Of a stretch of 64,000 nt of DNA, positions 26,402 through 32,683 are shown in pieces. How positions within the stretch are numbered: position 1 is the stretch's first letter; each line of letters starts with the position of its first letter. The notes under the pieces were generated by a model. The model was not told the DNA's origin. It saw nothing but the letters and a program-made list of their open reading frames with translations, and did not search any database. The stretch lies in contig NZ_AXAR01000003.1 in assembly GCF_000472905.1 (NCBI RefSeq), positions 65,054 through 129,053 of the forward strand, given 5' to 3'. A program made the translations under genes and the position numbers. This DNA is from Alicyclobacillus pomorum DSM 14955 (GTDB lineage Bacteria; Bacillota; Bacilli; Alicyclobacillales; Alicyclobacillaceae).

Positions 26402-26734
26402 CTAATTCTGTCCCTCGATGGATCCCTTAGGCGCCTGTGAGGGGGGTTCATCCAAGGTGACTTGCCGGTCGGACGACATCGGGTTCTGGTCGCGGAGCGA
26501 GCTGACGACAGCTTGCCCTGGCCGCCACGGTGACGTCTTTCCAAGTTTCTCTTCATTCGTCGATGCACCGTACGGCCCTTCCGGGAATTCCTCCCGCAAA
26601 ATATCGTAATCCCGGGCTTGTACGGCGGACAATTCGGCGTTTGGCAAGTCCGTATCATTGATGGGGCCAGGGTTGTACGACCCAGAGTTTGTGCTGGTCA
26701 ATGGCGCCTTTCCTTTTTCGGCTTTCGACAACAT
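26402..26734 (-). CDS. Hypothetical hydrophilic protein
   Basis: A 110-residue protein that I do not recognise. The ATG at 26734 has a good GAGGTGAG ribosome site. The composition is rich in Pro, Ser, Asn, Glu and Gln, without hydrophobic segments, so it is probably mostly disordered. 'NPGPINDTDLPNAELSAV' and 'EEFPEGPYGA' are the more structured-looking parts. Small proteins of this kind are common among spore-associated proteins of bacilli, but no motif supports that here. It is divergent from gltX. Confidence 0.6.
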   Translation of the reverse strand: MLSKAEKGKAPLTSTNSGSYNPGPINDTDLPNAELSAVQARDYDILREEFPEGPYGASTNEEKLGKTSPWRPGQAVVSSLRDQNPMSSDRQVTLDEPPSQAPKGSIEGQN

Positions 26735-28611: not shown

Positions 28612-28685
28612 TGCCGAATGGTGTAATGGTAGCACGACTGACTCTGGATCAGTTAGTCTAGGTTCGAGTCCTAGTTCGGCAGCCA
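28612..28685 (+). tRNA. tRNA-Gln (anticodon CTG)
   Basis: A 74-base cloverleaf with acceptor TGCCGAA/TTCGGCA, anticodon loop CTCTGGA and GGTTCGAGTCC T-arm. CCA is encoded. Confidence 0.96.
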
Positions 28686-28686
28686 A

Positions 28687-28761
28687 GGCCCTATCGTCTA
28701 ACGGTTAGGACGCCGCCCTCTCACGGCGGTAATAGGGGTTCGAATCCCCTTAGGGTCACCA
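28687..28761 (+). tRNA. tRNA-Glu (anticodon CTC)
   Basis: A 75-base cloverleaf with acceptor GGCCCTA/TAGGGTC, anticodon stem CCGCC/GGCGG around CTCTCAC, T-arm GGGGTTCGAATCCCC and encoded CCA. Confidence 0.96.
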
Positions 28762-28768
28762 AAACTCT

Positions 28769-28844
28769 GGGTCATTAGCTCAATTGGTAGAGCATCCGAC
28801 TCTTAATCGGCAGGTTGAAGGTTCGAGTCCTTCATGACCCACCA
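28769..28844 (+). tRNA. tRNA-Lys (anticodon CTT)
   Basis: A 76-base cloverleaf with acceptor GGGTCAT/ATGACCC, anticodon loop CTCTTAA and encoded CCA. The first anticodon-stem pair is a T-C mismatch. Confidence 0.95.
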
Positions 28845-28879: not shown

Positions 28880-29023
28880 GTCCCTTTCGTAACGGTGAAT
28901 GCTTCCATCTCTTGTTGTTCGCGGGAGATGAAAGGTTTCTTCGCAGCCTGGAGTTTTCTATGATGAGAGTAAGGTAAAGTAGGGCAGGGAGCACTGGCCC
29001 TAGTCGATTCCTACGGAGGGACC

Positions 29024-30871
29024 ATGTTGAACAAAAAACATCAACGAGGCGAATATCGCCTGCGGGCGGTTGAAACATGGCTGGATCAATTCGGCGCTAT
29101 GGTTTGGGCCGTGGACCAGATCTGGCATGGAGCGGCGCAGCCTCCCGTCAACGTGTTTGAAGATACGTTCATCGAACTATATCGACGTTTTTCGAGCATC
29201 CGCCGCTTTCCGTCCGCGCGTTCAGCGGTGCTGTATTACGCTATACAAGCTTGTGTCAACGCAAAGGAGTCGGAACTCGCCGAGAACGTACACCGCGCGA
29301 GTACCCAAGTCGGCGACTCGGCCAAAGCGAACGTGTCCGAGACGACGGCGTGCTCCATGCCTTGGGAAGGTGAGCTAGAGGCGATTTGTCGACTCACGCA
29401 AACTCAGAAATGGGTGGCCGTTTCGTACCTGTTTCACGAGGGTGACATGCATACCCTGTCCCGCACGATTTCTCGACCCAGGGCGTTCGTCCTGAACCAG
29501 CTGGATGCGGCCTCCAAAGTGCTGTGGTCTGCTTCCGACACGTTTGCCAGTGCGCAGCAAAAATGGGTCGACTTGCGCACGAAGGTCCAGGTCTATCTGG
29601 AGCAGTTGTGTGTACCGGAAGCGGTGCAGGTACGAGCGAGAAAGATGTTGATGGCGTCTGCTGCAAGCATGCAAGCAGAACACCGCCAGCGCGGACCAAG
29701 ATGGGTGAAGTACGGGATGGTGCTGGCTGGAGCGGTAGCCCTTGCGGCGATTGCTTACGGTGCACAGGGGAGAGTTCAGTCTGCCACTGCGAGCAGCGCT
29801 GCCGCGGGCGACGCGTCCATGCCGCCGAAGCCGACCGGCTTGCCAAGCCCCATATCCAACTTCCCAGGGCGTGTGCTTGCACAATTTCGGCTCGCGAACC
29901 ACTTCGACATAAAAACCGCAGCGCACATGGCGATTACAAAGAACAGTGTGTACCTGCCTGAGTTGACCACAGTCAGCGATACGTGGCCGTCTGTGGTGAT
30001 AAATCGGTGTGACATGGCTAAATCGGGTCAATCGCTTGAGGAGAACCTGGAGCGAGTGGGACAAGTGGACCTGATTCCACCAACGCACCCGGCAGCGTCC
30101 AGTGGAAAATCAGCCGCGCCAGTCGGCTGGGTGGTCAAGGAATGGCGCTTTTACGTGACGGGTTCTTGGGGGATAGTCGTCGCGAATTGGGTGCCACACG
30201 GTGCGTCTGGTGAGTCGGTAACACAGCTGTACGCCCTCTATCTACCCACTGGAAAAGCAAGCCTCGTCAAGACGTTTGACAACAAATCGGCAAGCGACCA
30301 AACAGTCGTGGCCGTGGGTGCAGGGAAAATCGTGGTTCAGTCAGCCATTGACGGTGCAGCGGATCAACCACAAGGACAAGCGTCCTTGAGCTTACCTGTC
30401 GACGTCTATACGTTGTCAGGACACATTCCTTTGCAAGCGCTGGGCGAGCCAAAACACATTCCAGCCCCATTTGGGCTGATGCAAGATCCGGTTATCACCG
30501 GGGATCGGCTGATATTTCAGGGAATCCGGGGACAGGTTCAGCCGGAGGACAATATCAATGCGACTTGGTATGGTTTGTCCTGGGACGGTCAATTGGCCCG
30601 TTACGATGGTCCTCCGCTGGACGGTCAACCGCACTGGCCAGTCACAGGAGCGTCTGGTGCTCTCTGGTGGGCAGAGACCACCCCAGACGACTCGCATCAG
30701 TCCAGCATGCAAGTGCTGATGCACCCATTGACAGGCACAGACGCGGTGAAGCAGACTCCAGCGCAGACCCTGGCACAGTCTGTTCAGTTTTTTACTGCGT
30801 CGGATCAGTACGTCGCCTGGGTTCAGTCGACGGAGGGAGTCACCCAACTTGTGGTTGGAGAGTTGCCATAG
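29024..30871 (+). CDS. Membrane protein with degenerate ECF-sigma-like N-terminus and large extracytoplasmic domain
   Basis: A 615-residue protein that I cannot place in a named family. The first 225 residues look cytoplasmic. Residues about 14-80 ('FGAMVWAV', 'FEDTFIELYRRFSSIRRF') follow the pattern of sigma-70 region 2, and residues about 115-170 ('LTQTQKWVAVSYLFHEGD', 'VLNQLDAASKVL') follow that of region 4. One membrane helix spans about residues 227-249. The remaining 365 residues lie outside the membrane, begin with a Ser/Ala/Pro-rich linker and contain repeated Trp/Tyr/Gly beta-strand patterns suggestive of a propeller. A membrane-tethered sigma or anti-sigma-like sensor is an inference. 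It ends 39 bases before uvrC. Confidence 0.7.
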   Translation: MLNKKHQRGEYRLRAVETWLDQFGAMVWAVDQIWHGAAQPPVNVFEDTFIELYRRFSSIRRFPSARSAVLYYAIQACVNAKESELAENVHRASTQVGDSAKANVSETTACSMPWEGELEAICRLTQTQKWVAVSYLFHEGDMHTLSRTISRPRAFVLNQLDAASKVLWSASDTFASAQQKWVDLRTKVQVYLEQLCVPEAVQVRARKMLMASAASMQAEHRQRGPRWVKYGMVLAGAVALAAIAYGAQGRVQSATASSAAAGDASMPPKPTGLPSPISNFPGRVLAQFRLANHFDIKTAAHMAITKNSVYLPELTTVSDTWPSVVINRCDMAKSGQSLEENLERVGQVDLIPPTHPAASSGKSAAPVGWVVKEWRFYVTGSWGIVVANWVPHGASGESVTQLYALYLPTGKASLVKTFDNKSASDQTVVAVGAGKIVVQSAIDGAADQPQGQASLSLPVDVYTLSGHIPLQALGEPKHIPAPFGLMQDPVITGDRLIFQGIRGQVQPEDNINATWYGLSWDGQLARYDGPPLDGQPHWPVTGASGALWWAETTPDDSHQSSMQVLMHPLTGTDAVKQTPAQTLAQSVQFFTASDQYVAWVQSTEGVTQLVVGELP

Positions 30872-30910: not shown

Positions 30911-32683
30911 GTGAATCAAGTCCTTCGCGACAAATTGACACTCTTGCCAGCGAAGCCTGGCGTGTACTTGATGAAAGACGAATCCGGGAACATCATCTAC
31001 GTGGGAAAGGCGAAGGTTCTGAAAAACCGGGTGAGGTCCTACTTTACAGGTTCTCACGACGGGAAGACCCAACTGTTGGTCAGCCAGATCCGCGATTTTG
31101 AGTATATCGTGACAGATACTGTGGCCGAGGCATTGGTTTTAGAGTGCAACCTGATCAAGCAGTACTCGCCCCAGTACAACATCATGTTGCGCGACGACAA
31201 GGCATATCCGTACATCAAAATTACGCATGAGCGCCATCCACGCCTGGAGATTGTTCGTCGGGTGAAAAAGGACAAGGCGAAGTATTTCGGCCCATATCCG
31301 AATGCCACATCTGCGACCGAGACGAAAAAATTGTTGGAGCGATTGTATCCTCTGCGCAAGTGCAAGACGCTGAAGAAAAAGGTCTGTTTGTACTACCATA
31401 TCGGGCAGTGTTTGGCCCCTTGCGAGTTCCCTGTTGAGGAGGAGACGTATGCTGCGCTCACGCGCGAAATTGCGAATTTCCTCAGCGGCGGACACAAGCA
31501 AGTGCAAGAAGACCTGCGCCAGCGCATGGAACAAGAGGCAGAAAAACTAAATTTTGAACGAGCCAAAGAACTCCGTGACCTTATCCAGCACATCGAACGG
31601 GTCATGCAAGAGCAGAAAGTCACAGTCACTGACCTCGTCGACCGCGATGTCTTCGGGTACTACGCGGAACGTGGGTGGCTCTGCGTCCAAGTCTTCTACG
31701 TGCGATCCGGCAAAATGATTGAGCGCTCTGTCAACGTGATGCAACACTACAAAGAAGCCGAGGAAGACTTCATGTCATTCGTCGAACAGTTTTACTATCA
31801 GCAGGCGGATATTCCGAAGGAAATTTTATTGCCGCAAGGCGTGAACAGCGACGCGCTGCAGGAGTGGTTGCCGGCGAAGTGCATCCAGCCAAAGCGGGGA
31901 CAAAAGCGTCAACTCGTAGATCTGGCGTGCGAAAATGCCAAGCTGGCGCTGGAGGAACGCCTGCGACTCATGGAAAAGAAGATGGACCGGACTCTCGGGG
32001 CCATTGTGGAACTAGGTGAGACGCTCGCCATCCCGACACCGCACCGCATTGAAGCGTTCGACAACTCCAACATCCAGGGCTCTGACGCCGTGGCGGCCAT
32101 GGTCTGCTTTATCGACGGAAAACCTGCGAAGTCGGAGTATCGCAAGTACAAAATTCGAACGGTGCAAGGGCCGGATGACTACGAATCGATGCGGGAGGTA
32201 ATCCGCAGGCGGTACACCCGAGTTCTGAAGGAAAAATTGCCTCTGCCGGACCTGATTGTGATTGATGGTGGTAAGGGCCAATTGGCAGCAGCGTTGGACG
32301 TGCTGGAGAACGAGCTCGACCTGGACGTTCCGGTCTGTGGATTGGCGAAGGATGACCGTCACCGGACGCACCAACTGTTCTTCATGGATGAGGAGCAACC
32401 GGTGGAAATGGACCGTCACTCCCAAGCATTTTATCTGTTGGAACGCATTCAGGACGAGGTACACCGATTTGCCATTACGTTCCACCGGCAACTGCGCAAA
32501 AAAACCGGACTGAGTTCCGTGTTGGACGACATCCCCGGCGTCGGCCCGCAACGGCGCAAGGCGTTGCTAAAGCACTTTGGATCCCTCCAATCCATGCGCG
32601 AAGCCCCGTTAGAGGAGTTTCAATCCATCGGCATTCCAGCCAGGTTGGCGGAGGCGATTCAAGTGCACTTGCGACAGCTGTAA
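30911..32683 (+). CDS. uvrC: UvrABC system protein C
   Basis: A 590-residue excinuclease subunit that makes both incisions in nucleotide excision repair. Domains in order are GIY-YIG nuclease ('[20 protein letters not shown]', residues about 14-95), a Cys-rich segment ('[17 protein letters not shown]'), the UVR motif ('[15 protein letters not shown]'), the RNase-H-like C-terminal nuclease ('[19 protein letters not shown]', '[12 protein letters not shown]') and a helix-hairpin-helix pair ('[13 protein letters not shown]'). GTG start at 30911 with GGGGGAGGTG upstream. Confidence 0.96.

Follow-up and report, generated by a model that had tools for sequence, protein, structure and literature searches.

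The Gene and Its Locus

The window, meaning the whole 64,000-nucleotide stretch of Alicyclobacillus pomorum DSM 14955 that was analysed, carries a gene for a 615-residue protein, followed by uvrC and then by sdhCAB; its features are collected in Table 1. When the window protein and the products of the adjacent genes were used as tblastn queries, the order tRNA-Gln/Glu/Lys, gene, uvrC proved common to the loci of relatives, and the tRNA trio was also present in the 20 relatives' loci scanned with ARAGORN. Across relatives, the gene is separated from uvrC by 12-93 nt or overlaps it by 4 nt in several species, so both probably form one co-transcribed operon, with probable translational coupling in those species. 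The open reading frame is a real gene, because its homologues occupy a fixed locus and each of the protein's three parts has a dN/dS well under 1.

Table 1. Features of the gene and its surroundings in the window.
Feature	Position	Strand	Basis or remark
tRNA-Gln, tRNA-Glu, tRNA-Lys cluster	28612..28844	+	ARAGORN; marks the conserved locus, just upstream of the gene
Sigma-A-type -10 element TATGAT (putative)	28959..28964	+	59 nt 5' of the start codon
Shine-Dalgarno GGAGGG	29015..29020	+	Sequence read directly
Whole gene, 615 aa	29024..30871	+	ATG start
Sigma region 2-like domain, residues 8-94	29045..29305	+	NCBIfam, family profile, AlphaFold model, profile comparison
Sigma region 4-like helix-turn-helix domain, residues 115-167	29366..29524	+	Family profile, AlphaFold model, alignment
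Juxtamembrane helices, residues 177-194 and 199-223	29552..29692	+	AlphaFold model, tail profile score, low dN/dS
Membrane helix, residues 226-246	29699..29761	+	Prediction and hydrophobic sequence
Outer beta-propeller domain, residues 281-615	29864..30868	+	Prediction, structure matches, profile match
uvrC, next gene	30911..32683	+	39 nt from the 615-aa gene in the window

Of 24 representatives, 15 have the motif TA[TC]NAT[GA] no more than 110 nt upstream, compared to a mean of 0.8 and a maximum of 4 in shuffled sequences. Given this sigma-A-type -10 element, expression would be constitutive from a sigma-A promoter. Translation would often be coupled to that of uvrC. An autoregulatory promoter of the ECF type (GGAAC..CGT) was found upstream in 1 of the 24, near chance.

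Regarding its distribution, the gene is restricted to Alicyclobacillaceae, where nearly all sampled members carry it. Homologues of the full-length query were found in 36 of 61 genomes, every one in the family of the window, and a profile of the outer domain was positive in 39 of 59 genomes of the order, all from that family, and in none of 18 sister-family genomes. Within the family, the outer-domain search recovered the gene in 39 of 41 genomes, one further genome (G012) keeps a truncated copy, and a class-wide sample of 399 genomes gave matches from family members only. The two members lacking an outer-domain match are G012 and G010; the latter genome is 85% complete and its uvrC match starts at base 23 of a contig, so the adjoining gene simply lies off that contig. 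A contig scan with the family alignment named Alicyclobacillus contaminans, A. tolerans, A. macrosporangiidus, A. mengziensis, A. acidiphilus, A. fastidiosus and A. herbarius among the carriers, and the same kind of scan with the single window protein recovered no relative.

A precursor of the gene was sought upstream of uvrC in the sister family and rejected, the reading frames there being of other types, some of which we take to be NfeD/SPFH-type and others unrelated. A small reading frame of the window at 26402-26734 (minus strand), with the motif EEFPEGPYGAS...LGK.TPW, also occurs near uvrC in the sister family (L119:725-1069, minus strand), and its sequence points to a conserved, uncharacterised small protein.

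Sigma Ancestry of the Cytoplasmic Half

An earlier note on this DNA, made from the sequence alone, had read the N-terminal half as a degenerate ECF-sigma-like domain with regions 2 and 4, and profile searches bore this out, matching sigma factors and no unrelated family. On its own, the window protein has a single hit in NCBIfam, the RNA polymerase sigma factor model NF008891 (residues 16-168, E=1.8e-4), with a score far under the cut-off of that model, and nothing in Pfam at E<=10. A simple phmmer search of the PDB with residues 1-225 returned nothing, and a family profile was needed: the profile of the 13 members having both sigma2 and sigma4 matched only sigma factors in the PDB (best E=2.7e-11), and in the A. 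pomorum genome it matched the canonical ECF sigma at C1:296237 (E=2e-18) and another one (E=3.7e-14). The canonical ECF sigma of locus L147 aligns with positions 11-168 of the family profile (E=2e-18). Among the relatives, G003 and G024 match many NCBIfam sigma models, the best E=8e-11 in G003, with all singly scanned members staying under the curated sigma-model cut-offs (best 42 bits against 198 for NF006930, and 29 against 42.9 for TIGR02937). In profile-profile comparison with canonical ECFs, the sigma2 part scored 74 for the long forms (shuffled maximum 18) and 51 for the short forms, which have no sigma4 (null maximum 17).

The AlphaFold model of residues 1-219 shows sigma2 and sigma4 in a closed arrangement (pLDDT 89, pTM 0.85). 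It superposes on anti-sigma-locked sigmas from NepR, RsiW and CnrY complexes with Z 11.6-13.2 and rmsd 3.1-3.4, the matches being 5uxx_C (Z 13.2, rmsd 3.1 over 148 residues), 5wur_A (Z 12.4) and 4cxf_A (Z 11.6), while superposition on sigmas bound to RNA polymerase leaves an rmsd of about 27 A, so their domains are arranged differently. Foldseek also ranked sigma chains first, with weak E-values (best 0.01). Judged from profiles and predicted structure, the N-terminal half descends from an ECF sigma factor, with regions 2 and 4 recognisable and region 3 lacking. The alternative of an unrelated helical domain that only imitates a sigma factor was rejected, as the profile, the structure and the alignment to canonical sigmas are all concordant.

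Membrane Helix, Propeller and Probable Fusion Origin

The single membrane helix postulated in the earlier note was likewise recovered by prediction, joining 225 residues to a large folded outer domain, with 369 residues after it. The basic stretch HRQRGPRWVK just before the helix suggests that the N-terminal part is cytoplasmic. Both the helix and the propeller are confident predictions: the outer domain is nearly all strand and was modelled as a beta-propeller, mostly at high confidence, so that structure prediction of the two halves gave sigma domains inside and a propeller outside. Compared to the PDB, the outer domain matches neuraminidase propellers (Z up to 12.9), a TolB propeller (11.7) and NHL propellers; since these are of many kinds, the matches indicate the fold and not the function. 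The family profile of this domain matches Vgb, the virginiamycin B lyase (E=4e-5), and the window propeller has no match in Pfam. It is the best conserved part of the protein, likely a sensor of a ligand or of the envelope.

At locus L147 of the same genome, a canonical ECF sigma gene overlaps the next gene by a few bases, and in the product of that neighbour a short tail (VPLPESVKQDIL...) and a basic patch precede a single membrane helix, which an outer domain follows. This neighbour (L147:1708-3202, contig C1) has no Pfam match, is probably an anti-sigma of an undescribed type, and has homologues widespread in the family. When the juxtamembrane helices were compared to the anti-sigma tail by profile, the score was 17.1 against a maximum of 11.3 in 100 column shuffles, over 23 columns corresponding to one amphipathic helix, with an hhalign probability of 19% over these columns. 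The gene apparently goes back to an ECF sigma gene that became joined in frame to the adjacent gene for its one-helix membrane anti-sigma, an origin for which the layout argues well and the sequence weakly, because the tail similarity spans 23 columns. In G003 (L053:5526-6356), an insertion made of a run of KLDA/KLDT repeats separates the sigma4-like region from the juxtamembrane helix.

Degeneration, Domain Losses and Selection

Residues were counted by eye after the 13 long forms had been aligned to four canonical ECFs from the A. pomorum genome. Neither the asparagine of region 2.4 with the downstream Asp..Arg nor the tryptophan of region 2.3 in register is kept in any of the 13 (in G009 a tryptophan lies one column off), and the aspartate of region 2.2 is kept in 5 of 13 and Gln-Glu in 3 of 13. 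The segment for -10 recognition is lost in all 13 members having sigma2 and sigma4, and the sigma2 surface expected to contact the RNA polymerase clamp is poorly conserved.

Both sigma domains are found in 13 genomes of 7 genera, whereas sigma4 is missing in genera g4, g5, g8, g13, g15 and g16, the cytoplasmic part then being 106-160 residues long compared to about 195-300 otherwise. With a single gain assumed, a phylogeny from concatenated uvrC, sdhA, gltX, sdhC and sdhB implies repeated loss of sigma4: each of 1000 bootstrap trees requires 3-7 losses, and 934 of them require 5 or 6, counts to be taken as approximate because IQ-TREE stopped before convergence. The sigma2-like part is kept in all members but one. 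The exception is G007 (L056 / L037), where the coding sequence ahead of the membrane-proximal motif is a mere 26 residues long and directly follows tRNA-Lys, leaving no room for further N-terminal coding sequence past the tRNA. In G012 (L058, between uvrC and tRNA-Lys), the propeller is gone; the sigma2-like part remains, together with the juxtamembrane motif and the membrane helix.

Nei-Gojobori dN/dS values for the close pairs G011/G028, G021/G027, G035/G036, G063/G064 and G019/G025 were 0.19-0.42 in the sigma-like part, 0.07-0.12 in the juxtamembrane and membrane helices and 0.05-0.13 in the outer domain. For the short forms, the range was 0.10-0.42. These ratios indicate purifying selection on all three parts, weakest on the sigma part, which evolves about 2-4 times faster than the remainder in most pairs.

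Proposed Role and Alternative Explanations

The product would reside in the cytoplasmic membrane with the sigma2-sigma4 module inside and the propeller outside, and the juxtamembrane, anti-sigma-like helices would hold the sigma module closed. Because the residues for -10 recognition are lost and sigma4 has been repeatedly discarded, the protein most likely no longer directs promoter-specific transcription; with these losses and the absence of the sigma part in G007, the suggestion of the earlier note that it works as a sigma-like or RNA-polymerase-binding protein is not supported. A remaining binding role is nevertheless favoured, because sigma2 has been preserved under purifying selection. 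By combining both arguments, the reading placed ahead of its rivals, tentatively and at slightly less than an even chance, is a constitutive, membrane-anchored pseudo-sigma, in which the retained sigma2-like domain most likely acts as a tethered docking module for core RNA polymerase or an anti-sigma, its exposure being regulated by the propeller. Against docking stand the poorly conserved clamp surface of sigma2 and the fast evolution of the sigma part, which, being also lost in G007, may have no shared function. A more specific proposal, that the propeller-gated domain positions RNA polymerase at the membrane or titrates anti-sigmas, is speculative and rather doubtful; we know of no membrane protein in which a sigma domain has such a regulatory use.

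An unlikely but serious competitor, second in the ranking, is an active fused sigma/anti-sigma comparable to IutY, where a signal at the propeller would trigger regulated intramembrane proteolysis and the released sigma2-sigma4 fragment would transcribe a regulon, the short forms being secondary losses. The order of the parts equals that of IutY, both sigma domains persist in 7 genera, G003 is recognised by sigma models (down to E=8e-11), and the closed conformation of the model as well as purifying selection would be expected; however, promoter-melting and -10-recognition residues are gone in 13 of 13, the promoter found upstream is of the sigma-A type rather than an ECF-type autoregulatory one, all singly scanned members fall below the curated sigma cut-offs, and sigma4 was repeatedly lost. 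The repeated loss of sigma4, the G007 form, and an outer domain conserved best while the sigma part evolves fastest agree with a vestigial cytoplasmic domain, where the membrane-anchored propeller is the working part, with an envelope or ligand-binding role, and the sigma remnant is a decaying anchor or folding aid. Such decay appears improbable, since G012 dropped the outer domain yet kept the sigma2-like part and the membrane helix, the dN/dS of the sigma part is clearly below 1 with short forms included, and all members but one keep the sigma2-like part.

A PhyR-type mimic would be an anti-anti-sigma: by capturing an anti-sigma, its closed sigma-like domain would set a different sigma free. 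The protein shares with PhyR a sigma fold without DNA-binding residues, whose loss is expected of a mimic, and a closed arrangement; the sigma-like domain of PhyR ranks with the best matches of the structural comparison (4qic_A, Z 11.2), and G003 weakly matches the PhyR model (E=0.0054). Unlike PhyR, it is membrane-bound, the Pfam search found no receiver domain, the rest of the protein being a propeller, the locus has no gene for a separate anti-sigma as partner, and sigma4, which in PhyR helps to hold NepR, is often missing, making this explanation very improbable, the least likely of those considered. The docking pseudo-sigma is consequently retained as the working interpretation.

Comparison with Known Systems

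The joining of sigma factor, membrane helix and sensor in one polypeptide is already known, so the earlier note's view of an undescribed system does not stand for the design itself. IutY (ECF243) of Pseudomonas putida is a sigma/anti-sigma hybrid from which active sigma is released by Prc/RseP, and outside it has the periplasmic domain of an anti-sigma, which receives its input from a TonB receptor (PMC5411451). The Alicyclobacillaceae protein resembles it in that one membrane helix links an ECF sigma domain in the cytosol to a domain outside; however, it belongs to a Gram-positive, exposes a beta-propeller, and its sigma part is degenerate, with sigma4 lost in many relatives. The same single chain of sigma, membrane segment and extracytoplasmic sensor-like domain is present in ECF52 (SCO4117), ECF48 and ECF53 of Actinobacteria, where the membrane helix is preceded by an anti-sigma domain of the zinc-finger type and ECF52 also has a carbohydrate-binding module (PMC5826349, PMC8999054). 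In contrast, no zinc finger was found in the Alicyclobacillaceae members: zf-HC2 was absent among the matches listed for 30 of them in Pfam at E<=1, although the same library detects it in a ZAS anti-sigma of the A. pomorum genome, and the segment between sigma4 and the membrane helix in the window has a single cysteine (C196) and no CxxC. Planctomycete ECF sigma factors carrying WD40 repeats (PMC8567305) also join an ECF sigma domain to propeller-type repeats, but they belong to a distant phylum and their repeats are of the WD40 type, whereas the window propeller has no Pfam match and its sigma part is degenerate.

What is distinct in the Alicyclobacillaceae protein is the propeller, the lack of a zinc finger, the degenerate sigma and the stepwise series of losses, and a literature search found no paper on this pseudo-sigma family, an absence that is not proof. 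Within one family and at a fixed locus, there appears to be a natural series from a recognisable ECF sigma to sigma2 only to no sigma, the remainder being mostly kept, which lets one ask what becomes of a fused sigma/anti-sigma once promoter selection stops and whether sigma2 by itself can find new use as a docking module at the membrane. The small set of one-polypeptide sigma/anti-sigma designs also gains a Gram-positive branch, putatively propeller-sensing.

The canonical pair at L147 has a homologous sigma and a similar layout of anti-sigma tail and membrane helix, differing in that it consists of two overlapping genes, with intact sigma residues and a different outer domain. Elsewhere on contig C1 of this genome (L142:1035-3144), an ECF sigma gene is followed by that of a membrane protein of 526 aa that has carboxypeptidase-regulatory-like domains and is probably a further anti-sigma sensor, and on contig C33 (L145:1254-3467) lies a pair whose sequences resemble SigI and an RsgI-type anti-sigma.
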